Assembly: GCA_016124895.1 (NCBI GenBank)
Contig: WGMU01000064.1
Location: forward strand, 1-64,000
Direction: 5' to 3'
Origin: a bacterium
GTDB lineage: Bacteria > Planctomycetota > Planctomycetia > Planctomycetales > Planctomycetaceae
Length of the DNA: 64,000 nt
A model generated the notes under the pieces. It ran no database searches. It was not told the DNA's origin and worked only from the letters and a program-made list of their open reading frames with translations. Of the stretch, positions 49,265 through 64,000 are shown one piece after another (position 1 is the first letter of the stretch; each line of letters opens with the position of its first letter). A program made the translations under genes and the position numbers.

Positions 49265-50176
49265 ATGAAAAAGAACCTTGCTCTGTTTCTCGTCTTCGTC
49301 TTCAACAGTTGGGTCGCCGCTCAGGACCAGCCCAGCGACGCTCCAACTCACGCAAATGTTTCGTATGGCCCGTTCAAGTCCAACGTGCTGGATATCTGGA
49401 TTGCGGAAGGCCAGAAGCCGCGTCCGTTGCATGTCTATATTCACGGAGGTGGCTGGACCGGCGGCGACAAGTTTCAGAAAGGCAATCCGCAGAAATACTG
49501 GCTCGACAAAGGGATTTCGTACGCGGCGATCAATTACCGCCACACTCCGGAAGCTCCGTTGCCGGCACCGGTCCATGACGCGGCGCGAGCGATTCAGTTT
49601 CTGCGTTCGAAAGCCAGCGACTGGAACATCGACACGAACCGTATCTGCCTGACCGGTGGAAGCGCGGGGGCCTGTACGTCGATGTGGCTGCTGTGCCATG
49701 ACGATCTGGCCGATCCAGACGCAGATGATCCTGTCCTGCGCGAATCGACTCGCGTCGCTGGAGCAGCCGTTTCCGCAGGTCAGACGTCAATCGATCCGAA
49801 ACAGATTGAGCCGTGGCTCGGCCCGATGGTTCTGCAGCATCGCATGATCAATATGGCCGTCGGCGAACCGACGATCGAAGGTGCCCTGAAGAATTACGAA
49901 AAGCACAAGGCGCTGTATCACGAGTTTTCGGCGTACAACCACGTCAGTCAGGACGATCCGCCGCTGTTCATGACTTACGGTGGCGACATGACGCTGCCGT
50001 CGAAGAATGCCGGACACGGAATTCATCATCCGGTCTACGGCGTCAAAATGAAGGAAAAGGCGGACAGCGTCGGCATGGAGTGTCACCTGCTGATTGGCGA
50101 CGGAACGGCTTCAAGATCCGACAGGTACAGGAACGCGAACGAATTCATCGAAGCGATCCTGCTCGGCGGCAAGTGA
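49265..50176 (+). CDS. Exported alpha/beta-hydrolase (esterase, BD-FAE type)
   Basis: A 303-residue hydrolase with a signal peptide (MKKNLALFLVFVFNSWVAAQD). VYIHGGGWTGGDK is the oxyanion-hole HGGG motif and LTGGSAGACTSMWL the nucleophile elbow (Ser in GGSAG). An Asp/His pair is likely in the region around residues 240-290, although the last His is not obvious: the end reads MECHLLIGDGTASR. It probably cleaves esters of plant or algal polysaccharides. Transcribed alone. Confidence 0.85.
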   Translation: MKKNLALFLVFVFNSWVAAQDQPSDAPTHANVSYGPFKSNVLDIWIAEGQKPRPLHVYIHGGGWTGGDKFQKGNPQKYWLDKGISYAAINYRHTPEAPLPAPVHDAARAIQFLRSKASDWNIDTNRICLTGGSAGACTSMWLLCHDDLADPDADDPVLRESTRVAGAAVSAGQTSIDPKQIEPWLGPMVLQHRMINMAVGEPTIEGALKNYEKHKALYHEFSAYNHVSQDDPPLFMTYGGDMTLPSKNAGHGIHHPVYGVKMKEKADSVGMECHLLIGDGTASRSDRYRNANEFIEAILLGGK

Positions 50177-50360
50177 ACCACAGCGATCGCACGTCGCTGG
50201 ATTTGTAGAAATGCAGTCGGGATACCGAAACGGCTGAATCCCTGCGAATCCAGCGGCAGTCCATGTGCAACGCTCAATTCGGCGATCAGCCAGCGTCGCG
50301 GCGCTTGGGGTTAAGCGAGGATTTCTCAGCAATCCCGTGGCAGATGAATCGAACGCGTTC

Positions 50361-51032
50361 TTACGTCAGCAGACTGAGGACCCGCCCAACGTCTGAGAAA
50401 TCCTCGACGAGATAATCGGGCTCTGTCGCCGCCAGTTGCTCGGTCGAATACAGCCCGGTGGCGACGGCAAGCACCGACGCTCCAATTGCGCGACCGCACT
50501 GGACATCAGCGGGAGTGTCACCGATGACCCAGAGGTTGTCGGGCAGCGCGTCCGGCACGATGCGTTGCAGGTCGTCCAGGGCCGCACGGGCAACATCGTC
50601 GCGGTGTCTGTGATCGTCGCCAAAACCGCCACATTTGAAGTGCTGAATCAGCTCAAAATGCGTGAGTTTCAATTCCGCGCCGCGACGCAGGTTTCCCGTC
50701 AGCAGACCAAGATGCGTGTCTGCCTGCGAACTCAGACAGTTCAGCAGTTCGATCACGCCAGGCAGGATCAGACCGTGTCGTGCGGCCAGTTCCGTCGGCA
50801 GGTGCGCAAGATACTCATCAATGATCCGCCGCCGGTTTTCGGCGGTTGGTTCGATGGAGTGATAATCCAGCAGGTCGGTGATGATTGCGAAGTCGGTGCG
50901 TCCAGCGACGGAGATACCTTCTGTCGGCGCGGTGATGCCAAACGCGCGAGCCAGTCCCACTTCCATCGCGGCCTGCCCGGCACCACCGCTGCTCAACAGC
51001 GTTCCATCAATATCAAACAGATAAGCGAACAC
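50361..51032 (-). CDS. HAD-family hydrolase (phosphoglycolate phosphatase-like)
   Basis: A 223-residue phosphatase. Motif I FDIDGTLLSS (about 5-14), motif II LGLLTGNLRRG, motif III Lys in LKLTHFELIQHFKCGGFGDD, motif IV VIGDTPADVQCGRAIGA. The helical cap between motifs I and II fits class C1, near phosphoglycolate phosphatases. Substrate not known. It is 30 bases downstream of the STAS gene and likely in one transcript. Confidence 0.9.
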   Translation of the reverse strand: MFAYLFDIDGTLLSSGGAGQAAMEVGLARAFGITAPTEGISVAGRTDFAIITDLLDYHSIEPTAENRRRIIDEYLAHLPTELAARHGLILPGVIELLNCLSSQADTHLGLLTGNLRRGAELKLTHFELIQHFKCGGFGDDHRHRDDVARAALDDLQRIVPDALPDNLWVIGDTPADVQCGRAIGASVLAVATGLYSTEQLAATEPDYLVEDFSDVGRVLSLLT

Positions 51033-51062
51033 AACTCTGCCCCTGTTGAAGTTCTGTCGGCG

Positions 51063-51428
51063 TCAGCTCACGACAAACGTCAGCGCTTCGTCACGCGTTT
51101 CAAACGACGGCCAGAGCTTGCCGAGTTTGATGCACTTGAGCAGTTCCTGCATGTTTTCTGAGGCGCAGCAGAAGACTGACTTGCCTCGCTTCTGTTTGAC
51201 CTTCGTCAGGCAGCGAAGAATTGAGCTGATTATCACCGAGTCAACATAGTCAACGTCGCTTAGATCAACGATGACGTGGGCAATGGCCGGTTCGTCCAGG
51301 CAGCGGTACAGGGCACTCGATTCGATATGAACTTCGTTATGCTGAAAATGCAGCGCCGGCCCCTGCGGCAGAACAATCAGTGCCCCACCGGCACGCTCAA
51401 CTTTGAAGACTTTCTGAGGATCTGGCAT
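51063..51428 (-). CDS. STAS-domain protein (anti-sigma factor antagonist-like)
   Basis: A 121-residue protein that is almost entirely a STAS domain: VIVDLSDVDYVDSVIISSILRCLTKVKQKRGKSVFCCASENMQELL split over the usual strands and helices. The phosphorylation loop reads VDSVIIS where typical antagonists have DSSG, so the phosphorylatable serine may be displaced or lost. In partner switching it would bind an anti-sigma kinase; a PP2C phosphatase is encoded at 22336, but no kinase is nearby. Confidence 0.85.
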   Translation of the reverse strand: MPDPQKVFKVERAGGALIVLPQGPALHFQHNEVHIESSALYRCLDEPAIAHVIVDLSDVDYVDSVIISSILRCLTKVKQKRGKSVFCCASENMQELLKCIKLGKLWPSFETRDEALTFVVS

Positions 51429-51556
51429 CAGTTTGAATTCCGAAACAGCGATGAACAGACAGACCCGAATCCGGGCCGATCAGGAAAAGCGGAGCAGCGT
51501 ATCAGACAGTCTTCGGCAGGTCGAACCCCTGACTCTGATGATCGACTGACACCGCT

Positions 51557-52186
51557 TCAGTTCAGAGTCAGCTCCAGTACGAGCACTGCGACCAGAAGAC
51601 CAGCGACAACGGACACATGTCGCCACGCAACGGTGTCGGCATTCGGGCCAAATCCGAACGCTCGGCCCTGTCCATTCCAGAGCCCAAAACCCACGACCGA
51701 GGTCAGGAACCCGAAAAGCCAGAGCTGCCAGGACTCCGCTCCGGAACGCAGGAGGTCGCCCGCATCACCGACGCGATCAAATGAGCCGACGCCGAGATAA
51801 AGGCCGTTGGCCACGGCGCAAAAGCCGGCAAAGAAGCGCAGCAGAAATGTCTCGGGCCGCTGGAACAGCGCGAACATCCTCCAGATGCCGATGGGCACGA
51901 GAACGCCGACAACCGGACCGGCCCAGACGACGAAATGCGGACGCGGATTCGGCTCGACGTCGGTCCTCGAAATCGCCAGAGGATGCAGCACGACGCTGGT
52001 GACTTTGCCGCCGGTCAGCCAGGCTCCGACCACGTGCCCGGCTTCGTGAACGATCATCATTCCGAACCAGCACAGTGGCAGCAGCGCGATGACGAGGAAG
52101 AATCCGGGCGACCGACAGTCAGCCGGCGCAGCAATGGCAGACGACGGCCCGGCATCTGTTGTCTGCTGTCCCAGTGAACCCGACAT
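51557..52186 (-). CDS. M50-like membrane metalloprotease
   Basis: A 209-residue integral membrane protein with about five helices. MMIVHEAGHVVGAWLTGG contains the HExxH zinc motif within a membrane segment, as in site-2 proteases. A second motif may be FDRVGDAGDLLRSG near residue 145, matching the D-containing helix of M50B proteins. It lacks a PDZ domain and is shorter than RseP. Substrate unknown. Confidence 0.78.
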   Translation of the reverse strand: MSGSLGQQTTDAGPSSAIAAPADCRSPGFFLVIALLPLCWFGMMIVHEAGHVVGAWLTGGKVTSVVLHPLAISRTDVEPNPRPHFVVWAGPVVGVLVPIGIWRMFALFQRPETFLLRFFAGFCAVANGLYLGVGSFDRVGDAGDLLRSGAESWQLWLFGFLTSVVGFGLWNGQGRAFGFGPNADTVAWRHVSVVAGLLVAVLVLELTLN

Positions 52187-52262
52187 GACGATTTGCTTTC
52201 GCTAGACTCGACACGCGGCAGAATGCCGCCTGACTGAACTCGACTGACCTCTGGAGGCTCTG

Positions 52263-52964
52263 ATGCGACACGCTCTGATTCTCACCGCTCTGACAACGCT
52301 CGCGACTTCCAGCACGCTGGCTGCGGACGACGCGTGTTCTGAACCTGGGGGCAAAGCCATCACCGATCTTCCTCTGATCTTCTGCGACGATTTTGAATCC
52401 GGGGCGGACTCCTGGGAACCGGCTGACCCGAAAGCATGGAAGCTCGAAACTATCAGTGGCAATACGGTGTTCTCGCAGTTCACTCAGAGCAAGGTTGAGA
52501 ATCCTGTTCGCTCTCCTTTCAACCGCTGCATCCGCAAGGGAGATACAGTTGGCAGCTTCGTGCTCGATGTGAGGTTTCAATCCACGAAGAAGGACTACCC
52601 GCACCGGGACTTGTGCCTGTTCTTCGGCTATCAGGATCCCTCCCATCTGTACTACGTCCACTTTGGAAAACGCACCGACGACCACGCCAATCAGATTTTC
52701 ATCGTCAATGAGCAGCCGCGCACGAAGATCTCAACAAAGGCAACGTCGGGAACCGACTGGGACGACGAGTGGCATCACGCCCGCATCAGACGCAACGTGA
52801 CGAGTGGCTCGATCGAGATTTACTTCGACGATATGAAAACGCCCGTGATGACCGCGACGGACAAGACGTTTCAGTGGGGGCGAGTCGGCATCGGTTCGTT
52901 CGACGATACCGGTCGTTTTGACAACATCGCTTTGTTTGGCCAGAAAGTCGAACCACCGCAGTAG
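52263..52964 (+). CDS. Secreted concanavalin/LamG-like protein
   Basis: A 233-residue exported protein with a clear signal peptide (MRHALILTALTTLATSSTLAAD). The mature part has a jelly-roll pattern: LIFCDDFESGADSWEP, SFVLDVRFQST, LYYVHFGKRTDDHANQIFIVN, EWHHARIRRNVTSGSIEIYFDD, WGRVGIGSFDDTGRFDNIALFG. It resembles DUF1080-type domains and glycoside-binding folds. No catalytic pair is obvious. ACCTCTGGAGG lies before the ATG. Confidence 0.82.
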   Translation: MRHALILTALTTLATSSTLAADDACSEPGGKAITDLPLIFCDDFESGADSWEPADPKAWKLETISGNTVFSQFTQSKVENPVRSPFNRCIRKGDTVGSFVLDVRFQSTKKDYPHRDLCLFFGYQDPSHLYYVHFGKRTDDHANQIFIVNEQPRTKISTKATSGTDWDDEWHHARIRRNVTSGSIEIYFDDMKTPVMTATDKTFQWGRVGIGSFDDTGRFDNIALFGQKVEPPQ

Positions 52965-52975
52965 TAGCGCCGCCA

Positions 52976-54379
52976 TCAGTCTGCTGCGTCTTCGTCTGAC
53001 GCCAGGCCCAGCGTTTCCAGCTTGCGATACAGGCTCGGCCGCGAGATGCCGAGCAGCTTTGCAGCTTTGGCCCGGCTGCCTCGCGCTCGTTCCAGTGCGG
53101 CGAGAACGTGCTCGCGCTCAACGCGGGCCAGCAGCGTGTCGAGCGGTTCGAGCGCAGTGTCCGGCGATGGACCGAGGCTCTGCGCATCCATGCCGTTGCG
53201 AAACCGGAATGGCAGATGAGCCGTCGAAATGATGCTGCTCTCGCAGGCTCGATGCGCAGCCTGCACGATGTCACGCAGTTCGTCCAGATTGCCCGGCCAG
53301 TTGTACGCCTCAAACTGCCGCCAGACATCTTCGGAGACTCCTGTCACCTGATGACTGCTGCCACGGTTCGCCTGTTCGACGAAACTCTGGCCCAGCACGC
53401 GCAGATCAACCAGCCGCGAGCGGAGCGGCGGCAGTTCAATCTGCAGCGCCGTGATCAGATAAAAGAGGCCTTCGGTGAGACGTTCGACAGCCAGCAGCGA
53501 CTCTGGAGCCCGGACCGATGAGGTCATCAGTCGACACCGCGCGCGAAAGGCCGCTCCGCGTTCTGAATTCAGAAACGTGTCCAGTCGTGACTGCAGATCG
53601 CGCGACAGGTGATCGACTTCGGCGAGAAAAATGGCGCCCGGCTGCAGCGTTGCGCTCCCTGTTGCCTCGGACCAGCCGGTTTCGACGAGCCTGTGAATCG
53701 CGCCTTCCAGCTCTGCCAGTGAGAGGTCGCGGCAGTTGAGTGGCACGAACGGCCGTTGCCCGAACTCGCCGGCATAGTGGATGGCGCGGGCGATATGCTC
53801 GCGTCCTGTGCCGACCTCGCCAGTGCAATGCACGCTGGAAGTCGAGCTCGTGGCGATCTCAATCTGCTCGAACACGCGGCGCAACTGTGGAGCCCGACTG
53901 ACGATCGAATCGCGTCCGTAGCGCTGCCGCAGTTCGTGACGCAGCGCGGCCAGTTCCGCGTGAACCTCGGTGACAATCGATGAACTGCCCGCAGCCTTTG
54001 CCGACGGCACGTCGGTCACGATGCCCAGGACGAGCAGCACGTCTTCCTCATCCTTCAGTGGAAAAAAGTGAATCAGTCGCGCGACTGAGCGGGCAGTCTC
54101 CCGATGCACGAAGTAACGCGGCACCTGCAATCGCTGTCCGGCCATGACTTCCTGTGGCGGCGCAAGGCTCGCGGTCGCTGCGTCCGGATCCTTCGCGGCC
54201 AGTCCCGATGTCAATTCGCATTTTCGGCCAGTCAGATCGCTCGCCGCCCAGCCGGTCAATTGTTCGCAGCCGGAATTTGCGAAGACCAGCCGGCGGTCCG
54301 CGTCAATCACGAAACACGGCGAGACGACCAGATTCAGCATCGAATCCAGCCGCTGTTTGCGCGAGATTCGTCGAGCCAC
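52976..54379 (-). CDS. PAS-AAA+-Fis regulator lacking the sigma-54 contact loop
   Basis: A 467-residue NtrC-like regulator. PAS is at about 15-110 (CFVIDADRRLVFANSGCEQLTGW), AAA+ at about 170-385 and a Fis-type HTH at about 425-460 (AALERARGSRAKAAKLLGISRPSLYRKLETLGL). Key AAA+ motifs are changed: Walker A GEVGTGRE has Arg for Lys, Walker B FLAEVDHL has Ala for the catalytic Asp, and the GAFTGA loop is missing between them. It should bind DNA but not hydrolyse ATP or open sigma-54 promoters. The GTG start at 54379 has GAGGAG seven bases before it. Confidence 0.85.
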   Translation of the reverse strand: MARRISRKQRLDSMLNLVVSPCFVIDADRRLVFANSGCEQLTGWAASDLTGRKCELTSGLAAKDPDAATASLAPPQEVMAGQRLQVPRYFVHRETARSVARLIHFFPLKDEEDVLLVLGIVTDVPSAKAAGSSSIVTEVHAELAALRHELRQRYGRDSIVSRAPQLRRVFEQIEIATSSTSSVHCTGEVGTGREHIARAIHYAGEFGQRPFVPLNCRDLSLAELEGAIHRLVETGWSEATGSATLQPGAIFLAEVDHLSRDLQSRLDTFLNSERGAAFRARCRLMTSSVRAPESLLAVERLTEGLFYLITALQIELPPLRSRLVDLRVLGQSFVEQANRGSSHQVTGVSEDVWRQFEAYNWPGNLDELRDIVQAAHRACESSIISTAHLPFRFRNGMDAQSLGPSPDTALEPLDTLLARVEREHVLAALERARGSRAKAAKLLGISRPSLYRKLETLGLASDEDAAD

Positions 54380-54560
54380 GCGGCGTCTCCTCAGGTTTTC
54401 AACAATGGCTGACGCAAAGGCGCGAAACCGCAAAGGAACGCGAAGAGATTCTGCCCTGACGGAAACGCCTTGCGGCACAAACTCCAGATCCAGGAAGCGT
54501 CTCCCCGAACTATTCTTTGCGAAACGTTGTGCCTCAGCGTCTTTGCGTCAGTTGGTTTCA

Positions 54561-55937
54561 CTACTCGTTCGGATACGCAGCCACTCGGATATTCCGGAAC
54601 GCGAGATTCGTCGTCGGATCGTGTCCCTGCAGACTGATCGGGCCGGCGGCGGTTTTGCTGCCGCGACGCGGGTTCTCGTCCGGTTCGCGAGTGTCCTGCC
54701 AGTCGGTGACCTGAAAACCGTTGACCCAGGCCGCGATGCGCGGGCCATGCGCGATCAGCGTCGTCGTGAACCACTCGTGATCATTCGGCACGACCCAGCG
54801 GGCCTGAGTTCGCCGGAAGATTGCTCCGGTCCCGGCGTTGTCTTTCGGCTGTCGGCGATCGCCGTTCAGGAAGACGTTTTCAATCTGCAGTTCGTAGCCG
54901 TTCGACGGAGCCTCTTCCGTTCCAGGCATCAAACGAAAGAAGACGCCGCTGTTGAGCCCATCCCCGTTGACCTGTGCTTCGAACTGCAGCGCAAAGTCCG
55001 CCCAGGCCGATTCCGTTTCCAGAAAGCCGGGACCGTTTTTCGCGACAATCGCTCCGTCCACGACGGTGAATTCGCTCTTCGATCCCGGCACGACGCGCCA
55101 ACCGCCGAGGTCCGCGCCGTTGAACTGCTCGACCGTGCCGAGAGGCTTGAGAAAGACATTCCGGAACCGAATCCGGCCCACGTTCTTCTGCAGCCCGATC
55201 AGGCCGCCACGACGGAAGCCGGATGTCTCATCCGTATGGTCGAGCACGACCTCGCCGTCGACCGACACTGTAAAGCGATTGCGGTCAACAAGGCCCCGCA
55301 TCGATTTCCAGACTTCCTCGCCCGCAACTTCCTTCGTCGGCTGGGCGCGCCCAACCAGGCTCGCCGTTTTGAACTCGGGGTGCGAGTCGCAGATGTTGAG
55401 TTCGTAGCAGTCCGCAGTGACGACTTTCGGTTCGGCCAGCGTCCGCAGAAAGACGCCGCTGTTGCCACCTTTGGCCATCCAGTAGTCAAACCGCAGTTCG
55501 TAATCGGCGAACGGAACAGTCGTCAGCAGCAGCCCGATGTCACCCTCGCTGGCTTCAATTTCACCGTCCGCGTTGACATGCCAGTTCGCGTTGCTGCCCG
55601 GAGTCCAGCCAGCCAGCGTCTGGCCATCGAAGAGCTGGATCCAGCCCTCACGGATTTCTTCCGGCGAGAGCAGCAGTTGTGGTTCGCCAGCGAGCGGCAG
55701 CGTCGGAAGTGCAGGCTTCTTCGGTTTCCCATCCGGCTTGTTACTGTCCTTCGAGGTTACCGTCGCATCTGCCGGGCTCTTCGTGGCTGCGCTCGCGTCG
55801 GCATCACTCTTCCTGGAAGCAACTGGCGATGCGGAGGGCGATGTCGCGGAGTCAGCACGTTCAGTTTCCTTGCTTCCACATCCGGAGACCGCAAACAGGC
55901 ACAGCAGCAACAGACTGACAGACAGCAGACGCATCAC
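54561..55937 (-). CDS. Lipoprotein with two DUF1080 domains
   Basis: A 458-residue exported lipoprotein: LLSVSLLLLCLFAVSGC is a lipobox signal with Cys at about 20. A Ser/Thr/Lys-rich linker of about 60 residues leads to two DUF1080 (3-keto-disaccharide hydrolase, LamG-like) domains, opening EGWIQLFDGQTLAGWTPG (about 95) and VEQFNGADLGGWRVVPG (about 265). Each ends with the family's WQDTREPDEN / FRNIRV or FRNVFL strand. DUF1080 proteins are abundant in planctomycetes and linked to glycan breakdown. Confidence 0.9.
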   Translation of the reverse strand: MMRLLSVSLLLLCLFAVSGCGSKETERADSATSPSASPVASRKSDADASAATKSPADATVTSKDSNKPDGKPKKPALPTLPLAGEPQLLLSPEEIREGWIQLFDGQTLAGWTPGSNANWHVNADGEIEASEGDIGLLLTTVPFADYELRFDYWMAKGGNSGVFLRTLAEPKVVTADCYELNICDSHPEFKTASLVGRAQPTKEVAGEEVWKSMRGLVDRNRFTVSVDGEVVLDHTDETSGFRRGGLIGLQKNVGRIRFRNVFLKPLGTVEQFNGADLGGWRVVPGSKSEFTVVDGAIVAKNGPGFLETESAWADFALQFEAQVNGDGLNSGVFFRLMPGTEEAPSNGYELQIENVFLNGDRRQPKDNAGTGAIFRRTQARWVVPNDHEWFTTTLIAHGPRIAAWVNGFQVTDWQDTREPDENPRRGSKTAAGPISLQGHDPTTNLAFRNIRVAAYPNE

Positions 55938-56179
55938 AGTGACTCCGGCAGGGACACAGATCGTTTCTCACAGAGCGGACAGGACTGTAGCGTCCCGCTG
56001 CGCTGCTTGACAAAGAATCCCGACCCCGTCACAACGCTCGCCGCGCGAGGCGGTCGCGACATCCGTTGACGGCCTGCTCTGCATCACGTTTGCATGTTCT
56101 CAGTCGGCCGGAATCCGCAGCGCGTCGAATCCGTCGGCTCTCTCTGTTTCCCTGATTGAATCAATGTGAGGAGTGACTG

Positions 56180-56410
56180 ATGAGTGGTCCGATTGTCCGC
56201 ACCGGGACGACGCCGGAATTCTGGAAAAACTACGACCGCGCGTTCGGCGAAGCGGCCAGCGGCAAAAAGAAGGCAGCGACGAAAAAAGCCGCCAGCGGGA
56301 AGCCCGCGGCCAAACAGGCTACATCGAAGAAGGCAACCGTAAAGAAAGCGGTGACAAAGAAGGCTGCTGTGAAGAAGAGCGGCAAGAAGAAGGCCGCGAA
56401 AAAGAAATAG
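56180..56410 (+). CDS. Small histone H1-like Lys/Ala-rich protein
   Basis: A 76-residue protein with an ordered start (MSGPIVRTGTTPEFWKNYDRAFG) and a 50-residue tail of Lys-Ala repeats (KKAATKKAAS, KKAVTKKAAVKK, KKKAAKKK). I recall similar short planctomycete proteins with the same opening. The tail should bind DNA or RNA. A GGAG lies nine bases before the ATG and a terminator follows. Function unknown; nucleoid or ribosome association is an inference from composition. Confidence 0.8.
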   Translation: MSGPIVRTGTTPEFWKNYDRAFGEAASGKKKAATKKAASGKPAAKQATSKKATVKKAVTKKAAVKKSGKKKAAKKK

Positions 56411-56451
56411 ACCGCAGCGTCCTTCAGTTGGTCGTCGACGCTCCAGCCACA

Positions 56452-56486
56452 AACGCTCCCGTTGAATTTCGGCGGGAGCGTTTTCC
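56452..56486 (+). terminator. Rho-independent terminator after the H1-like gene
   Basis: AACGCTCCCG (56452-56461) pairs perfectly with CGGGAGCGTT (56473-56482) and is followed by TT, CC, TTTT. It lies about 40 bases past the stop at 56410. Confidence 0.85.
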
Positions 56487-56629
56487 TTTTGACCTCACCA
56501 TTCAGGCAGCCTTTCTGCACAAAGCAACCTGCCGTGCTGCGCAAACTGTGCGTGACTGACGACGGCAACCTGAGACTGACGGCGGCAAACATTGCCTGTC
56601 CGGCTTGTCCAGTCAGAACCCCACAACGC

Positions 56630-56893
56630 TCAATCGACGGGAGTGATGTCTGCCTCGACGCGTACGCTGTGAGCGACAGCTTCGAGTTCTTCCTGCTCGA
56701 ACTGCTGCTGAGCCGCCTGGTAAATGTTGTCCCAGTCGAGCCCGGCGTGATGCGCGACGTGCATGGCATCGCTGAGAATCTGCTGCAGAGCGACTGACAC
56801 TTCATCACCACCCAGCCCTTCGGCAATCCATGTGTAGTGCCGCGAGCGGATGATCTCTTCGATGCGATGCTGCCATCGGGGATGAGCGACCAT
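56630..56893 (-). CDS. Small conserved hypothetical protein
   Basis: An 87-residue helical protein (MVAHPRWQHRIEEIIRSRHYTWIAEGLGG, then LSDAMHVAHHAGLDWDNIYQAAQQQFEQEE). AGGAGGTCTGTC runs into ATG 56893, a near-ideal ribosome site that fixes the start over a longer frame to 57097. It has no membrane segment or known motif. It is convergent with the H1-like gene. Confidence 0.75.
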   Translation of the reverse strand: MVAHPRWQHRIEEIIRSRHYTWIAEGLGGDEVSVALQQILSDAMHVAHHAGLDWDNIYQAAQQQFEQEELEAVAHSVRVEADITPVD

Positions 56894-57105
56894 GACAGAC
56901 CTCCTGCTTCTGAACGAGCCAACGCAAACCGAACAAATCACACACAGGCATCCGCATTTCTGAATCGTACGCGCCGGCCGATTCACGTCGATGGGAAATC
57001 TCCCGAGCAACATCTGGTCACTGACGATACTGCAGCCAGCAAAATGAGCGAGACGCTGCCACGCTGCGTGAAGAACACTCTCGAACAGCGATGGCACGAT
57101 TCGTT

Positions 57106-58377
57106 CTATTTTCCGGAACCGTGGTTCGACGAAACGTTCGACAGGAAATGTCGAGTCACCATCCGCCCATAACGAGCCTCATTGATCATGACCGCGCCGA
57201 TGTGAGGACAGTGGCGTTCAATGTCCAAACTGCTGTTCCTGCACGCAGCGTCGAGTTCATACGCCTGCGCAACCGGCACAATATGGTCATCGTCGCCGTG
57301 AATGATCAGGGTTGGCACATCGACATTCTGCAATACTCTGGCGGGAACGAGCGAGTTGATGTCGGCGCCGATTTCGTTCCATCCGAAGCCGCGAGCGACC
57401 TCCGTCAGCGCGGGACGGACGAATTCCGGAGCGAAGCGAAACTGATAGCGGACCATCGATGGCAGACTGGCAAAGGCTGAATCAAGGACGACAGCTTTGA
57501 CTTGCGGCATCTCTGGAAGCGCCATCGCCAGTGACGCTCCACCCATTGAGACTCCAAGTGCGAAGACCCGCTCAGGATCGACATCAGGCCGCGCGAGACA
57601 CGCGTCGTACGCTCCCAGGACGTCGAGTCGCTCGTTCAGACCATACGTGATCGTGTGACCGTCGCTGTGACCGTGTCCGCGGAAGTCAAACGTCAACACT
57701 TGAAAACCGGATTCAACCAGCACCAGATGGATGTCTTCGATGTCTGCGTGATTCGCTCCGACACCGTGGCAGACAATGACCGTTCCACGCGGCGACTTTG
57801 GTTTGAGAAACACGCCGCGTAACGTGGTCGTGCCGTCACGGCTAAGAAACTCAATCGGCTCAATCTGTCCGGCCGGAATGCCAGTCATCGGCGTCGGCAG
57901 CAGCTTCGGCCGATGGACTGCAAAGACCACCAGAATGTACGGAATGAGAACAGCATAGAACGCGATTCGCGATCCAATCATCAGTGGCAGATGCCAGTGT
58001 TTGCTGACGCGCTGCCGCATGCGGTCGAGCAGAGATTCCTGAAACTGAAACACGTACAGCAGACTCAGCTCAAACGACACACCGAAGAAGTAGCTGATCA
58101 CCAGCAGCTCGCGCCACGACCAGATTGAACCGGTCACTCGCACCAGAAAGCCGTAGTAGGCCAGTGGAAAAAGGGCGAGTACCACGATCGCGCTGACTCG
58201 TCCGACACGTGACTTCGAGTTCAGTCGCGGTGGCGGAAGCACGTTCAAACCGCGAGTTCCGATCAGGACGATCAGAGGCCAGGCGAGCCAGAAGGCTTCC
58301 GACGTTGAGCCGACCAGTTCGCGCAGTCCGAGAACAACACCGATGCCAATGGCCAGAAACGCCATGAGTCGAGGCAT
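57106..58377 (-). CDS. Membrane-anchored alpha/beta-hydrolase
   Basis: A 423-residue protein with about four N-terminal membrane helices (to about residue 165) and a C-terminal serine hydrolase: GTVIVCHGVGANHAD (oxyanion region), FDFRGHGHSDG, ALGVSMGGASLAMA (nucleophile Ser in GVSMGG), TLIIHGDDDHIVP (acid), with His in CPHIGAVM. It starts 52 bases after the end of the reverse transcriptase gene on the same strand, so the two may share a transcript. It may be a normal host esterase or an accessory protein of the retron-like locus; the sequence does not decide. Confidence 0.85.
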   Translation of the reverse strand: MPRLMAFLAIGIGVVLGLRELVGSTSEAFWLAWPLIVLIGTRGLNVLPPPRLNSKSRVGRVSAIVVLALFPLAYYGFLVRVTGSIWSWRELLVISYFFGVSFELSLLYVFQFQESLLDRMRQRVSKHWHLPLMIGSRIAFYAVLIPYILVVFAVHRPKLLPTPMTGIPAGQIEPIEFLSRDGTTTLRGVFLKPKSPRGTVIVCHGVGANHADIEDIHLVLVESGFQVLTFDFRGHGHSDGHTITYGLNERLDVLGAYDACLARPDVDPERVFALGVSMGGASLAMALPEMPQVKAVVLDSAFASLPSMVRYQFRFAPEFVRPALTEVARGFGWNEIGADINSLVPARVLQNVDVPTLIIHGDDDHIVPVAQAYELDAACRNSSLDIERHCPHIGAVMINEARYGRMVTRHFLSNVSSNHGSGK

Positions 58378-58429
58378 CGCATTCCCCTGTGTTGCGGAAA
58401 CGTTCCGGCGCGACGCACCCGCCGACTGG

Positions 58430-59404
58430 TTACGGACGTCGCTGTTCGACCATCTGCAGCAATGCCTTCCAGCCGGCGAGTTGTTCGCGCGTCATGGTCG
58501 CAGAGCGGCCGGTGTTAAGACGATGCTCGACTGCGCGCAGCTTGCGCCGGATGTGGCGCGGCACATTGACGCAGTCGTTAACGACCAGGCCGGTGACTCG
58601 CTGCTGCTGGTGCTGCCGCAGAATCCGAATCTTGGAACGGTTCAGCGCATAGCCGTCGCAACGCAGACGTCGGGCAATGAACTGAACAACGACACGAATC
58701 CTCCGTGGATAATCCTTCGGGAAACTGATCGTCAGATCGTCGGCGTAGCGTGTGTAGACGCCGCGCCGCCTGTCGCAGACAAACCGCTCGATGGCTCGAT
58801 CGAGACCGAAATTGACGAGGCTGCTGAGCCGCGGACTGGTCGGTGCGCCCTGTGGCAGGCCGTCCTCATGAGTTGTCACTCTCGTGAGCAACGCCGCGCA
58901 TTCAGCATCCCAGCCGACGCGACGGAAGTAAGCGTCGATCCGATCGGCACGAGTACTCGGGAAAAAGTCGGTCACATCGAGTTTGATGACGACCGCCTGC
59001 CCAACGTGCGGCGCGGCATTCTCAACGATCGACAGCCCACGCTCGAATCCAGTCACGGCGTCGTGGGTTCGCAGCCTCCCGAGCAGTCGCCGCAGGATCG
59101 TCCGCTGCAGACGTTTGAGTTCAGAATTCGGGATCAGCAACCGCCTCGAACCGCCGCTGCGTTTTGAAATGAAAGCTTCGCGGTAACCGACGTCGACGCT
59201 TCGCAGTTCGTCTTCAGAAACGTCAAGCCGTCTCGCCAGTTCGTCGATGCCGAGTCCCTGCCCGCGACGGGCTCGCAGCCAGTGACGGAGATTGCTGTTA
59301 GTTACTCGCCGGTACCGGATGTGCAGACAGACGCCGACACCAAACAGGCAGGCGACAACGAGAGCGAAGGAGACAAGTTGAGACAGAAGATTGAATGCAA
59401 GCAT
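58430..59404 (-). CDS. Retron-type reverse transcriptase with N-terminal membrane helix
   Basis: A 324-residue RNA-directed DNA polymerase. Residues 5-28 (LLSQLVSFALVVACLFGVGV...) form a membrane helix that ordinary retron RTs lack. Then LGIDELARRLDVSEDEL and FISKRSGGSRRLLIP open the RT fold. Hallmarks: NAxxH at 129-133 (NAAPH), KLDVTDFFPS (141-150, catalytic Asp), LPQGAPTSP (183-191), catalytic YADD (220-223) and VTG at 270-272 (RVTGLVVND), the last two regions with NAxxH being the retron-specific X and Y motifs. ATG 59404 gives family length; upstream frame holds the RNA gene. See the ncRNA at 59452-59574. Confidence 0.92.
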   Translation of the reverse strand: MLAFNLLSQLVSFALVVACLFGVGVCLHIRYRRVTNSNLRHWLRARRGQGLGIDELARRLDVSEDELRSVDVGYREAFISKRSGGSRRLLIPNSELKRLQRTILRRLLGRLRTHDAVTGFERGLSIVENAAPHVGQAVVIKLDVTDFFPSTRADRIDAYFRRVGWDAECAALLTRVTTHEDGLPQGAPTSPRLSSLVNFGLDRAIERFVCDRRRGVYTRYADDLTISFPKDYPRRIRVVVQFIARRLRCDGYALNRSKIRILRQHQQQRVTGLVVNDCVNVPRHIRRKLRAVEHRLNTGRSATMTREQLAGWKALLQMVEQRRP

Positions 59405-59420
59405 CACGCCGCCTGATGGG

Positions 59421-59449
59421 AAAACGGGCACCGGAAGACCGGTGCCCGT
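59421..59449 (-). terminator. Terminator-like hairpin between the RNA gene and the RT gene
   Basis: On the minus strand, ACGGGCACCGG-TCTT-CCGGTGCCCGT is a perfect 11-bp stem (59449-59424), followed by TTT (the last stem base is T, giving TTTT). It starts three bases after the a2 arm and ends 17 bases before the RT start codon. It may end most transcripts after the RNA, making RT synthesis depend on read-through, or protect the RNA 3' end. Confidence 0.8.
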
Positions 59450-59451
59450 CA

Positions 59452-59574
59452 CATCCTGCTTCGTGTCGGGAATTTCGGCACGAAATTGTCTGACACGAAC
59501 GCGCGAGTCTGAAGCCGTCACAAAACGGCCGGACCGACGAAACATCGGTCTGTGCCTGAGGCACCGCCAGGATG
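59452..59574 (-). ncRNA. Candidate retron msr-msd RNA
   Basis: Read on the minus strand, 5' to 3': arm a1 CATCCTG (59574-59568); hairpins GTGCC-TCA-GGCAC (59564-59552), GACCGA-7-TCGGTC (59550-59532) and GCCGT-6-ACGGC (about 59529-59514), fitting msr; then a long hairpin TTCGTGTC/GACACGAA (59499-59492 with 59467-59460) continued by AATTTCG-triloop-CGAAATT (59487-59471), fitting msd; then arm a2 CAGGATG (59458-59452), fully complementary to a1 and extendable by one G-U pair. This order is that of known retrons and it ends about 50 bases before the RT start. The branching guanosine cannot be assigned by eye. Confidence 0.75.
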
Positions 59575-59630
59575 CCGCTGCAGTCTATCCCGTGCGTTTT
59601 GCGAATCCGAGTCAGCTTCAACTGCCGCGC

Positions 59631-59669
59631 AGAAAACCGCCCCGGCCACGCTGTGCGGCCGAGGCGGTT
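59631..59669 (-). terminator. Terminator of the hibernation-factor gene
   Basis: AACCGCC (59635-59641) pairs with GGCGGTT (59663-59669), extended after one mismatch by five more pairs (59643-59647 with 59657-59661). On the minus strand it is followed by TTTTC (to 59632). It lies 50 bases past the stop of the gene at 59719-60039 and so separates it from the retron-like unit. Confidence 0.75.
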
Positions 59670-59718
59670 CAGTGAGAAGAAGTCTTCGATCGTCGGAAAC
59701 CTGAATGTGGCTTCTATC

Positions 59719-60039
59719 TTACCGCGGCTTGATCGGTCGTCGATCCACTCGGCGTTCGACGCGGCGCCCGATGCTGCGGGTCAACTGCCGCACAGCGCCG
59801 GAGACGGCTTCATGCACGCTTTGTCTACGGGCATCGACAACGACGGTCCCCAGCGGGCCAAGACTCGCAGCGATATGACAGCGAGTCTCCACGGGGCCGT
59901 GACCGCTTTCAGTCAGACTGATCACGAGGCGGTGAATGCGACTCGAAAAGTGTTCTAGCTGCTGCTCGATCCGATCCATAATGAATCGTTCACGACGCTG
60001 ATTGCTGTTCAACACGTTGTCATGCACAAGAACCTGCAT
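59719..60039 (-). CDS. Ribosome hibernation promoting factor-like protein (HPF/RaiA)
   Basis: A 106-residue protein of the HPF/RaiA (S30AE) type: MQVLVHDNVLNSNQRRERFIMDRIEQQLEHFSSRIHRLVISL is the beta-alpha-beta opening, with VETRCHIAASLGPLGTVVVDARRQSVHEAVSGAVRQLTRSI as the second half. Short form without the C-terminal dimerisation domain. It would bind the ribosome A/P sites in stress. AGGAAGAGG before the ATG supports the start. Upstream on the same strand are the CBS and coiled-coil genes. Confidence 0.82.
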   Translation of the reverse strand: MQVLVHDNVLNSNQRRERFIMDRIEQQLEHFSSRIHRLVISLTESGHGPVETRCHIAASLGPLGTVVVDARRQSVHEAVSGAVRQLTRSIGRRVERRVDRRPIKPR

Positions 60040-60249
60040 AGCCTCTTCCTTTACTCACTGAGAGGAACGACAACGACGGACCCAACGAACGCGTCAGTCC
60101 GTCCTCACTGCAATCGCCAGACGTACGGCCAATGGACGCTGTCCGGAATTCCGCAAGGATCTCCTGTTGAGAAAACAGACGGGGAAGACGCGGATCTCGC
60201 CGCGGCTGAGACAGTTTACGAGACAGCTCCGGACAGGATCGCGTTCTCA

Positions 60250-61197
60250 TCAGCCCAGGACGGAAGCAAAGACGCTTTCCGTTGCGCTGAGATAGAGCGG
60301 CTGACGAATTGGCTCGACTTCCGGAAACATGTGCCGAACTGCACTCAGGACATCCCGGCGACTGACCTGCCCAACGAGCCGCCCGTCCGTCACAACGGGA
60401 AAACGGCGGCCGGACGATCGATGAAACTTCTGAGTCATCGTCAGCAGGTCGGTGTCTTCGGTAATCGTAGCGGCCGCAGCGTTCATGAAGTTCTGAACCT
60501 GCCACTGCTCGCGGCGTACCAGCGGTGCGACTTCGGGCATTCGCAGAGAGCCGGGGCTGATTTCATAACAACCAACGAGGTGATCCAGCTCAGAACGCAG
60601 CACATCGCGGCGACTGATCTGACCAACCAGTCTGCCATCGTTAACAACCGGCAGACGACGATAATGCGTCTCGCTGAATTGACGCCGGATTTCCTCCAGC
60701 GTCGTTGTTTCATTGATGATCCGTTTCTGGTCATGGTCCATCCAGGCGGAAACGGGCGCATCGGAAATCTGATGCCAGGCGAGATCGATGACGACACGCA
60801 TGGCAGCATGTTCGGAAAAGATGCCAAGAAATTCACCGCGGCAGTTGATGACAGGCAGGCCGGAAACCTGTTTTTCCAGCAGTAGCTGGATCGCCGCGAA
60901 CGCGTCGGCATCCGGGGACACAGTAAACAGAGAACGCGTCATAATGTCGCCGGCGCAGATGTGCTCGAAGGTTTCGTCACAACGCCGCTCTCGCTCTTCG
61001 CTGAAAACGCTGAGGGCAATAATGCAGGACTTTTCCGAAAAGGTGCCGAGGAATCTGCGTTCGCAATCAATGACGGGAGCACCGGAAATGCTGTTTTCCA
61101 GCAGTCGGTCGATGCCGTCCAGAACGTCATCTTCCGGAGCCAGCGTCGTCAGCCGTGTGACCATGATATCGCGTGCGCAGATTTCAAATGCCTGCAT
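60250..61197 (-). CDS. Four-CBS-domain protein
   Basis: A 315-residue cytoplasmic protein made of two CBS pairs. Repeats open at about residues 10 (ARDIMVTRLTTLAPEDDVLDGIDRLLEN), 85 (AGDIMTRSLFTVSPDADAFAAIQLLLEK), 155 (VSAWMDHDQKRIINETTTLEEIRRQF) and 235 (VQNFMNAAAATITEDTDLLTMTQKF). Repeat ends carry RLPVVNDGRLVGQISRRDVL and RFPVVTDGRLVGQVSRRDVL, the adenine-nucleotide-binding pattern. It may sense AMP/ATP or another nucleotide. GAGGTTCCCC precedes ATG 61197. The 210 bp after it hold no gene. Confidence 0.9.
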   Translation of the reverse strand: MQAFEICARDIMVTRLTTLAPEDDVLDGIDRLLENSISGAPVIDCERRFLGTFSEKSCIIALSVFSEERERRCDETFEHICAGDIMTRSLFTVSPDADAFAAIQLLLEKQVSGLPVINCRGEFLGIFSEHAAMRVVIDLAWHQISDAPVSAWMDHDQKRIINETTTLEEIRRQFSETHYRRLPVVNDGRLVGQISRRDVLRSELDHLVGCYEISPGSLRMPEVAPLVRREQWQVQNFMNAAAATITEDTDLLTMTQKFHRSSGRRFPVVTDGRLVGQVSRRDVLSAVRHMFPEVEPIRQPLYLSATESVFASVLG

Positions 61198-61312
61198 GGG
61201 GAACCTCGATTCAAAGAGATGACGATCAGGCAGGTGCAGCGACCGAACGGTCTGGAGAGAAGATAAACACCTGACTGACGGCGGCGGTTGACATTGAGCG
61301 GGAAACTCGAAG

Positions 61313-61753
61313 TCAGCCTTCGCCGCCGATTTCCGTGTACCAGACGGCCTGCAGCAACTCACGCTCACGTCGTGCGTTGTCGACCATCCACTGTACCCAC
61401 TCCGCAAGATCAGCCTGCAGGTTCTGAACGAGTCGCGTCACGCTCTGTCGCAGTTCGAGTCGCGCCCGTAACTCCTTGAGCCGGCGGCACAGCCGCGAAT
61501 GCTCACATTGAATGATCTCGACCTGCGGTGACAGTTCCGGGCAGGGTTCGAGAACGTCTTCAAAGTAGTCGGGCGAATTTTCCAGTTCGTTCAATTCCGC
61601 CATGGATTCGATCAGCGCGTCAAGAACCGGACGCAGCCAGCGAACTGCATCCAGATCAAGATGGTCGTGCAGCATCTCGCGGATGTCGCCGACAAGCAGC
61701 CACGTCATTGTGCTGCAGCTTTGAGTGCCTGAGTTAATCTGAAGTGTGGACAT
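61313..61753 (-). CDS. Hypothetical coiled-coil protein in the stress cluster
   Basis: A 146-residue acidic, helical protein; TWLLVGDIREMLHDHLDLDAVRWLRPVLDALIE and a heptad-rich middle (IIQCEHSRLCRRLKELRARLELRQS) point to a helical bundle. No known catalytic motif. GGGAG precedes ATG 61753 by about ten bases; the longer frame to 61996 is not supported. It lies 115 bases upstream of the CBS gene on the same strand as the hibernation factor, so the three may be co-regulated. Confidence 0.7.
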   Translation of the reverse strand: MSTLQINSGTQSCSTMTWLLVGDIREMLHDHLDLDAVRWLRPVLDALIESMAELNELENSPDYFEDVLEPCPELSPQVEIIQCEHSRLCRRLKELRARLELRQSVTRLVQNLQADLAEWVQWMVDNARRERELLQAVWYTEIGGEG

Positions 61754-62394
61754 GAGGACGTCTCCCTGACAGGTTGGAACGCTGTCCGAAGCGAGGACGC
61801 AAGACGGGAAGTTCTGAACGGAGTACGCAACAGGCCGCCACTGAAATCTGCCCGGAACCAACGAGCGACGTGTCAGAATGTGAAACATTGACACCTGGAT
61901 CCAGTGCCCGGAATCGGGAACCGGCGAGTGAACCGCGGCAGCAGTGCCGCACAGGTCGTGGTCCCGGGCAGCGACTCGGGACAGAAGAAACAGCATCCTG
62001 TGGCTGCCTGGTGCAGCGAGGATGCTTCAGTAACCGACCGGCGTGATACGAGTTTGACACCCGGCCATCAACGACTCTGTCCCGGTTTCTGACGACCAAT
62101 GCTCGCACGATTGCGGCTCCTGTCGCGTACCCGTTCAGAACAGCCATGAAGATCTCAGCCTGCAGACTGCGATTCCCCGGCGACGAGCTTTCCCATCGCC
62201 ATCGTTCTCCATGGCTAGCTTAGCTCAGATCGAGGAAGCCCTCGGTACAGGCTGAAGCAGCGGGGAGAATTCTACCTGCGAAATCCAGAATCGCGCCGCC
62301 AATATCAGGGATTGCCCTAACGGTCCGTGATTGATTGAAAATACGGAAAAAAGTGCTTGACGGAGAATTCGTCAACTCGGCTTGTGCCCGACAT
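61754..62394. other. 641-bp region without a supported gene
   Basis: Between the coiled-coil gene start and the end of the DUF885 gene, both minus strand. Frames on both strands (for example 61734-62147 minus, 61774-62046 plus) lack family resemblance. The stretch 62325-62360 is A/T-richer than its surroundings with a TTGACGG, a possible promoter element, but its partner is unclear. Confidence 0.45.
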
Positions 62395-64000
62395 TCACCG
62401 CGAGGCCCGGATGCTCTGCCGGGTTTCGATGATCCACTCGTCAACGATTCTCTCCAGAATGTCGAGCGTCACGGCGCCGTTACTCAGCACCGTGTCGTGG
62501 AAGGCGCGGATGTCAAAACGGTCGCCCAGTTCATTCTCGGCGCGACGCCGCAGTTCCTGAATCTTCAGCTCACCGATCTTGTAAGCGAGTGCCTGGCCTG
62601 GCCACGCGATGTAGCGGTCGATTTCGTTTTCGATGTCGAGCATTGTCTTCGCAGTATTATCCGCGAAGAAGTCGATCGCCTGCTGACGCGTCCAGCCGAA
62701 TGCGTGTATTCCTGTATCAACGACGAGCCGCACTGCACGCCACATCTCGTACGTGAGCTGCCCGAATCGCGAATAAGGATCCTGATAGAGCCCCAGCTCC
62801 TGACCGAGACTCTCTGAGTAAAGCCCCCACCCTTCAATGAACGCGGTATAGCCGCCGTAGCGCCGGAACAGCGGGATACCTTCGAGTTCCTGCGCCAGCC
62901 CGATCTGCAGATGATGGCCGGGCACTGATTCGTGGACCGAGAGCACTTCGATTTCGTACTTCGGGCGAACTTCCGGACGGTACAGATTGACGAAGTACGT
63001 CCCCGCCCGGAGTCCGTCGCCCGACGGCGGGCGGTAGTATGCTGTCGTCGTATCGGGAGCGAGGTGTTCGGGAATCGGTTCAATGCCGTAGGGCACGCGC
63101 GGGAGGTGACGAAACAGTTTCACGAGCTGCGGGTTGATTCGCATACAGACTTCGCGATACGCAACCAGCAGGTCGTTCGGGTCTTTGAAGTAGAACTTCG
63201 GATTTGTACGCAGATCGGCAAGGAACTCATGAAACGTACCGTCGAACCTGACGTCGCGGACGATCTGCTCCATCTCAGTTCGGATCCGCTTGACCTCGGC
63301 AAGTCCGATTTCGTGGATTTCTTTCGGGGTGAGGCCTGTCGTCGTGAACTCGCGACACCGCTGCGCATAGAACTTCTGCCCCTCCGGGAACTGCCAGACG
63401 CCAACGCGCTCATAACACGACGGCAGATATTCGTCAGTGATGAACTTCAGCAGTTTGCGGAAGCCCGGCACGACGTGCCTGGTGATGGCCGCCGCAGCTT
63501 CCTCGCGCAGTCGCTGTTGCTCCGCCTCGGAAATCGACGCGTCGATATTCCGCAGCGGCTTGTAAAACAGGCTCTGTGTCGGATCATCGACAATCTGTCG
63601 CTCGATCTGCGCCGGCACGCGCTGCATGACGACTTTCGCATGAACGATCTTCCGACGAATGCCTTCGCGCATCAGAGCAATCGTCTGGTCCATGTAGACG
63701 GGAAAGGCGCACAGCCGGGCAATCCAGTCTTCATAGTCCCTGACCGCCGAGAACGACATCGCGTCGGCGAGTGAGTTCTCGTCCTGAATTCCCCCGCGCT
63801 GATTCAGCGGAACGAGATACCAGCCGAAGCGAAACCCGTCGACGCGATCCTGATATTCACGGCGAAACAGTTCGAAGCTGATCCGGTCCTGACCTTTGAA
63901 CTGCGTCTCGTCGGTCTGCTTCAGCTTTTCGAGGACCGCCTGATCCTGCTCATGCCGCTGCCGGATCGCGTCGAGGCTGACGTCCTGCCAGCGGTTATTG
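62395..64000 (-). CDS. DUF885 family peptidase-like protein, N-terminus cut by the window edge
   Basis: The frame is open from the stop at 62395 to the right edge; 535 codons are visible and the start lies outside. The first visible residues (NNRWQDVSLDAIRQRHEQDQAVLEKLK) and QFKGQDRISFELFRREYQ are typical of DUF885. The HExxxGH-like motif SVHESVPGHHLQIGLAQE, plus GWGLYSESLGQELGLY with Glu, form the presumed zinc site, and RQQAIDFFADNT is conserved. Related proteins act as dipeptidases or carboxypeptidases; exact substrate unknown. The Met at 63759 is internal, not the start. Confidence 0.92.
   Translation of the reverse strand, partial: NNRWQDVSLDAIRQRHEQDQAVLEKLKQTDETQFKGQDRISFELFRREYQDRVDGFRFGWYLVPLNQRGGIQDENSLADAMSFSAVRDYEDWIARLCAFPVYMDQTIALMREGIRRKIVHAKVVMQRVPAQIERQIVDDPTQSLFYKPLRNIDASISEAEQQRLREEAAAAITRHVVPGFRKLLKFITDEYLPSCYERVGVWQFPEGQKFYAQRCREFTTTGLTPKEIHEIGLAEVKRIRTEMEQIVRDVRFDGTFHEFLADLRTNPKFYFKDPNDLLVAYREVCMRINPQLVKLFRHLPRVPYGIEPIPEHLAPDTTTAYYRPPSGDGLRAGTYFVNLYRPEVRPKYEIEVLSVHESVPGHHLQIGLAQELEGIPLFRRYGGYTAFIEGWGLYSESLGQELGLYQDPYSRFGQLTYEMWRAVRLVVDTGIHAFGWTRQQAIDFFADNTAKTMLDIENEIDRYIAWPGQALAYKIGELKIQELRRRAENELGDRFDIRAFHDTVLSNGAVTLDILERIVDEWIIETRQSIRASR

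Follow-up and report, generated by a model that had tools for sequence, protein, structure and literature searches.

Retrons are bacterial systems known for phage defense. Their enzyme reverse-transcribes a small RNA, and they are usually described as three-part systems with a separate or fused effector that does the killing. The locus described here raises the question of whether it is a retron at all and, if it is, what its reverse transcriptase (RT) works with when that RT appears to be fixed in the membrane. It lies in a stretch of 64,000 nucleotides that we analyzed as a whole (hereafter, the window; positions 1 to 64,000 of contig WGMU01000064.1, assembly GCA_016124895.1, from a member of the Planctomycetaceae), where a first-pass annotation had described an RT with an N-terminal transmembrane helix preceded by a matching msr-msd RNA. 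We put the probability that the locus is a retron with a membrane-anchored RT at roughly 0.8, and we read the group to which it belongs as a new retron clade, so far in Planctomycetota, that is solo, usually membrane-anchored and found at fixed sites within two genera.

The reverse transcriptase and its upstream RNA

The gene at 58430..59404 (minus strand) encodes a retron-type RT of 324 amino acids with a catalytic YADD motif and a Pfam match to RVT_1, and its nearest PDB entries by both sequence and fold are retron RTs. The motifs that had been listed for it, NAxxH (residues 129-133, here as NAAPH), LPQGAPTSP, YADD and VTG (residues 270-272), are all present. The likely start is the ATG at 59404-59402, with the GTG immediately before it as a possible alternative, RT start codons being predictions throughout this work. 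An AlphaFold2 model of the RT, for which 26 proteins were supplied, has a mean pLDDT of 93.2, and the window's own genome carries one copy of the RT. Across nine pairs of RTs, dN/dS is about 0.08-0.25, pointing to strong purifying selection; dS is 0.76 or more in these pairs and thus near saturation in several of them.

Upstream of the RT, on the same strand, the RNA runs in the order a1 arm, three short hairpins, long hairpin and a2 arm, all of which were found at the places first claimed for them, and a terminator-like hairpin follows. The a1 arm of the msr (GCATCCTG, 59568..59575) is complementary to the a2 arm (CAGGATGT, 59451..59458) through seven Watson-Crick pairs and one G-U pair, in agreement with the first-pass annotation; its length of 123 nt for the RNA becomes 125 nt when counted from the start of a1 to the end of a2. 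Between the arms lie msr hairpin 1 (59552..59564), msr hairpin 2 (59532..59550; eight pairs, a conserved GATGTTTCGTC core and a UUU loop), msr hairpin 3 (59512..59530, a local fold in the window) and the long msd hairpin (59460..59499), which is the template of the predicted msDNA and has a counterpart before a2 in the folds of the 27 RNAs compared below. The G immediately 3' of a1 is invariant in all 27 and is likely to be the branch G.

These 27 RNAs come from a first set of 26 loci, one of which has two RNAs. Close relatives of the RT at E 1e-60 are present in 24 of the 170 genomes of the taxonomic family (the search of the order covered the same 170 genomes and returned the same 24), and the remaining two loci were taken from named records, of a Gemmataceae and a Phycisphaeraceae bacterium. 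In the resulting alignment, A1, the a1/a2 arms of four loci (L061, L068, L052 and L056) were anchored by hand.

A 237-nt region of the window folds to -116 kcal/mol (z -5.3), and none of 200 shuffles is as low. The minimum free-energy fold of the window RNA has no a1/a2 stem, and a1 pairs instead with bases just upstream; for this reason the case for the retron fold is made here from comparison and covariation. The hairpin-2 motif lies upstream of the RT in 26 of 26 first-set loci. For the named structure (a1/a2 with hairpins 1 and 2), 94.8% of cells are paired in the 27 RNAs versus 82.1% after shuffling, and two-sided changes occur at 15 of the 20 pairs, comprising seven of eight in a1/a2, four of four counted in hairpin 1, and four of eight in hairpin 2, where 100% of cells are paired. 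The covariation score is 0.444 versus 0.199 for shuffled alignments, and controls with a slid partner reach at most 0.126. Further pair types are no more numerous than after shuffling (85 of 500 shuffles are as high), and the two outermost a1/a2 pairs fail to form in 11 and 10 RNAs, respectively, of the 27. RNAalifold, run unaided, returned the same three helices with six of the eight a1/a2 pairs.

Hairpin 3 and the msd hairpin, for which there is no alignment, stand outside this pair counting and were only folded one RNA at a time. The segment that holds them has a median z of -3.3 in the 27 RNAs, with z below -2 in 18 of them and a value of -1.8 in the window itself; by eye, hairpin 3 is present at or near the same place in most of the 27. 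From one genus to another the msd sequences diverge strongly; within genus g56 they resemble one another. In 24 newly found RNAs, described below, the same structure has a covariation score of 0.473 versus 0.228 shuffled, in an alignment that was fitted to the model and is hence biased towards it. Covariation among homologues had been proposed as the check on the retron reading, and the reading survived it, with a strong signal for a1/a2 and for two of the three msr hairpins. Rfam returned no retron match in positions 50000-64000 of the window, and none at six loci that included the Ec86 locus; because it misses Ec86 too, its silence is uninformative.

Between the ncRNA and the RT gene, a GC-rich terminator-like hairpin with a T run, absent from the first-pass annotation, lies at 59421..59449 (minus strand). 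Defined as a stem of at least seven pairs with a T-rich tail behind it, directly after a2, such a hairpin was found in 26 of the 27 first-set RNAs versus 2.0% of base-shuffled copies, and in 8 of the 24 second-set RNAs versus 1.0% of shuffled ones, many others of the second set having a hairpin without the T run. The RNA of the first set would therefore be its own transcription unit, which suggests that it is made in excess of the RT message. A further GC-rich hairpin with a T run, at 59631-59666 on the minus strand, is perhaps the terminator of the upstream gene at 59719-60039, whose match to Ribosomal_S30AE falls just under the cut-off.

Linkage of RNA and RT, and the place of the RT among retrons

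A covariance model built from A1 was run on 392 genomes of the phylum, using the stricter filters for large sets, and it matched 28 of them at E 0.001. Six of these genomes had supplied training sequences, leaving 22 (with 24 RNAs) that were independent, and in all 22 of these genomes absent from model building, the RT family lies beside the RNA, within the fetched flank. The RT profile at E 1e-85 retrieved 29 of the 392 genomes, among which are all 28 RNA-positive genomes; the 29th, G277, has a partial RNA match over hairpins 1 and 2, and its RT has, by eye, hydrophobic N-terminal stretches. The profile scores fall from 298 bits to 271, and then to 260 and less. Other RTs are found at E 1e-40 or better in 58 further genomes, none of them among the 28. 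At a threshold of E 1, the RNA model matched none of 40 RT loci outside the family, Ec86 included; the fetched loci of 23 other planctomycete RTs (L008-L030) do not match it. The covariance model finds such retrons straight from sequence. Among viral contigs, 80 RT loci were kept from 365 relatives; the 53 of these to which the RNA model was applied gave no match at E 1 or better, and an exact 18-base pattern had none in the viral contigs either. Separately, we observed that many planctomycetes carry other retron-type RTs, often in frames that run more than 100 residues upstream of the RT part.

By sequence, the PDB entry nearest to the window RT is Ec86 (139 bits), followed by Ec67, Kva2 and other retron RTs, with a group II RT at 23.5, and in Foldseek the first 18 matches are all retrons, with group II after them. 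The best NCBIfam model is the retron St85 RT, at 200 bits and below its cut-off of 235. Sixty PADLOC families match the window RT, led by RT_XIII (229 bits) in a near tie with III-A (222) and II-A (216), and the RT of L058 likewise has no clear best type (245, 236 and 235 bits to the same three models). Five comparison RTs reach 347-662 bits to their own best PADLOC model, type labels that, Ec86 apart, come from the same scan; we therefore read the window RT, at 229 bits at most, as a member of an unmodelled clade. It had been proposed that the RT should fall among retrons, and its nearest relatives by sequence and fold are indeed retron RTs and not group II intron, DGR or DRT enzymes, to none of which it is closer than to retrons. 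That the locus holds one of these other bacterial RTs beside an unrelated structured RNA is hardly credible: the predicted structure does find RT folds of all these kinds, but with retron RTs far ahead of the rest, and RNA and RT go closely together throughout the phylum sample. We regard the retron identity as secure at the level of sequence.

The trees place the family next to other retrons. In a tree of 85 RTs, all 16 references other than group II and 18 other planctomycete RTs group together (92/99), apart from the family; one group II row, with a branch length of 4.22, comes out within the family, a position that is not trustworthy. In this tree the family needs two changes; a single origin appears in 9% of bootstrap trees, and the bootstrap is unsettled. 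A second tree, with 66 rows, unites the family and three long-branch planctomycete RTs in a supported group (100/99). The family is thus not cleanly one clade in the trees; it adjoins other retron RTs in both, and given midpoint rooting and the group II branch of 4.22, the trees do not prove the outer rooting. Both exclude L084, whose RT frame is cut short, and the short L022 and L029, and the second also excludes L008, L009, L013 and every reference except Ec86. In both trees, the long branches of three planctomycete RTs (L012, L018 and L019) come out close to the family or within it; the RNA was absent from these loci (best match 11.6 bits, E 5.6), and they were left out of the family. They are possibly retrons with a changed RNA.

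Ec86 (Eco1), of type II-A, is the closest solved relative of the window RT by sequence and fold. The Ec86 ncRNA used for the comparison matches E. coli genomes exactly, letter for letter. Like the window locus, it has NAxxH and VTG in its RT and an upstream ncRNA with a1/a2 arms, msr hairpins and an msd hairpin. Unlike the window locus, it carries its effector as a separate gene directly upstream, its RT has no membrane helix, its locus has no match to the window RNA model, and its RT scores 402 bits against RT_II-A, where the window RT scores 216. Type XIII retrons were compared through the score to the RT_XIII model; the window family has no partner at a constant place in the 46 loci clustered below.

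The N-terminal helix

The hydrophobic helix claimed for the N-terminus of the RT is present in the sequence. Its Kyte-Doolittle (KD) maximum over 19 residues is 2.44, the hydrophobic segment spans residues 1-31, and the structure prediction has one confident helix at residues 2-35; the predicted transmembrane helix, at residues 2-31, corresponds to 59312..59401 (minus strand). In the first set, 25 of 26 RTs have an N-terminal 19-residue window at KD 2.16 or more, L055 being the exception, and the sequence of the helix varies among members. The later 22 genomes divide into 8 at KD 2.10 or more and 13 at 1.40 or less, with L084 cut short; L088, whose likely start is immediately preceded by 19 masked residues, was scored as having no helix. 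Among 40 RTs outside the family, one, from Bacteroides, reaches KD 1.9, and at KD 1.6 two more (L010 and L119) qualify, with such a stretch close to the N-terminal end of their open frame; hydropathy at the 80 viral RT loci revealed one weak helix, at KD 1.62. Of the two flanks, the one on the RT side has the greater positive charge in 19 of 25 members, and the two are equal in 6, which by the established positive-inside rule suggests an N-out, C-in orientation. In nine of nine pairs, dN of the first 30 residues is above that of the whole protein, if barely in two, which suits an anchor.

Could the helix be an artefact of start-codon choice? The starts are predictions, and in the window the frame continues upstream of the chosen one, but high hydropathy is kept in 25 of 26 first-set members despite the varying sequence, the model has one confident helix there, and only 1 of 40 other RTs reaches KD 1.9, so that we consider an artefact very improbable and a membrane anchor, judging from these predictions, very likely.

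On the second tree, 14 of the 47 family members have no helix, and the 33 rows with one all lie inside one group of 39 (92/98), which also holds one supported helix-less subgroup of six (100/98), and the simplest account of this distribution is one gain and one loss. An N-terminal amphipathic helix (such as MGLFDFIGKFLG) was considered for the helix-less members and rejected, their hydrophobic moments being not above those of interior windows (the fraction of interior windows as high is 0.10-0.98 in the 14 members).

The first-pass annotation had suggested that a membrane-anchored retron RT would be new. The anchor is typical of this clade, and to that extent the suggestion holds; however, 14 of 47 members are without it, and it is not unique to the family, as the Bacteroides RT L109 (WP_004301840.1; L109:1017-2352 in the Bacteroides finegoldii plasmid record NZ_OY725931.1), a retron RT whose best PADLOC model is RT_III-A, shares an N-terminal membrane helix. 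It has no same-strand annotated gene directly after the RT, and a 209-nt stretch upstream folds with long end-pairing arms. Unlike the window family, L109 groups with other retrons outside it and has no match to the RNA model. A near relative of L109 (90%) occurs in a phage record from human feces. In the open-access literature searched, including PMC8867640, PMC12548924, PMC13158370, PMC8989520 and PMC12904381, we found no planctomycete or membrane-anchored retron RT, and an earlier notice in the main retron classification or census is possible.

Neighboring genes and possible roles

A linked or fused effector is usual in retrons, though it does not define all of them. We clustered all open frames at least 60 residues long that lie outside the RT at 46 loci, with flanks of a median 5.3 kb upstream and 4.1 kb downstream (the shortest being 0.7 kb and 19 bases), and no cluster kept a constant place; the widest covers 7 of the 46 loci at scattered distance and strand. 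Two smaller clusters coincide with the RNA itself; they belong to genus g56 and a relative. Earlier clusterings had used a longest-ORF rule that displaced the RT frame in 8 of 46 GC-rich loci, so that a partner could have been missed, and the all-frame clustering gave the same outcome. No linked or fused effector emerged from these 46 loci, and the membrane helix is the sole extra part. The six neighbors tested are metabolic or general (PEP hydrolase-like, DHDPS, Fe-ADH, 6PGD, DUF1559 and DUF1501). The window's genus mate has the same CBS gene upstream (protein 85% identical) and the same hydrolase downstream (73%), and in genus g32 an upstream gene is common to five of five loci and downstream genes to four of five.

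The most economical reading is a solo retron, the RT of which would hold the RNA-DNA particle at the membrane. A short RNA would be transcribed, ending at the terminator-like hairpin if that hairpin functions as one, and its a1 and a2 ends would pair. The RT would bind the three-hairpin msr part, prime on the guanosine next to a1 and copy the long msd hairpin into an msDNA of perhaps 50-60 nt. The N-terminal helix would keep the RT in the cytoplasmic membrane with its catalytic part in the cytoplasm, thereby placing the particle of RT, RNA and msDNA at the membrane, and no effector gene would travel along. Such a membrane-held particle would most likely be a sensor of phage attack, and the killing step would fall either to the membrane-bound complex or to a host protein whose gene lies elsewhere.

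Two lines of evidence sit uneasily with defense. The metabolic or general neighbors, together with the lack of a carrier among the viral contigs tested, fit a defense element poorly; and a review calls the effector essential for antiphage function (PMC13158370), whereas a solo retron would lack one. Retron-Bth1 is reported to have no obvious effector and an unclassified RT (PMC12548924). The window retron resembles that description in having no obvious effector, and a solo retron as such is thus not without precedent. A bolder reading, which we hold at clearly less than even odds, is a self-contained retron that can do without an effector protein, in which the RNA-DNA particle of the anchored RT acts at the membrane, either as a one-gene phage sensor and executor or in a vertically inherited role other than defense, and in which some genomes feed one RT with two msDNAs. 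A clade spread over the phylum that maintains RT and RNA under strong selection without a linked effector, with the RT mostly fixed to the membrane, would break the three-part rule or point to a shared host effector, and it offers a test of the role of msDNA when no toxin travels along.

A housekeeping or regulatory msDNA, whose particle has a chromosomal function at the membrane and no part in phage defense, is somewhat unlikely. The fixed position within two genera, the metabolic or general nature of the identified neighbors, the strong purifying selection on the RT and the lack of a carrier among the viral contigs tested all agree with such a role. Presence is patchy, however, at 24 of 170 genomes of the taxonomic family (E 1e-60) and 29 of 392 of the phylum (E 1e-85), which argues against an essential role.

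More doubtful is the proposal that the N-terminal helix is itself a membrane-disrupting effector built into the RT, the single-gene counterpart of the two-helix effector of Ec48 (Eco6), a type IV retron. In Ec48 the membrane protein is a separate accessory, whereas the window family has the helix on the RT and no accessory gene. Eco6 is described as having a predicted two-transmembrane accessory protein (PMC8989520), active on RecBCD inhibition (PMC12904381), which speaks for the parallel. PADLOC models single-gene retrons with fused parts (Toprim, protease and TIR), and some members of the window family (L064-L066 and L068) have a long hydrophobic stretch with room for two helices. Against the proposal, the raised dN of the first 30 residues is anchor-like, and the helix is missing in more than a quarter of the members (14 of 47).

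It is improbable that the locus is an ordinary tripartite retron with the downstream gene as its effector. This gene, at 57106-58377 on the minus strand, encodes an alpha/beta hydrolase with a hydrophobic N-terminal region, lies 52 bp downstream of the RT in the same orientation and is retained by the only other genome of its genus, but among the loci compared only that genus mate has it, its PADLOC scan was empty, and it matches general hydrolase families; we therefore rejected it as an effector.

In the bolder reading above, the self-contained retron would, in some genomes, serve more than one RNA. Tandem pairs of ncRNAs lie beside one RT in three genomes, at L055:1153-1481 (G109), L123:4981-5354 (G296) and L140:5033-5317 (G265). 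In two of these genomes, the members of a pair are 79% and 84% alike over the first 75 alignment columns, which are mostly msr, and 49% and 35% alike over the rest, and in the third the values are 65% and 60%. Being alike in the msr and unlike beyond it, such pairs suggest that one RT may make two different msDNAs.
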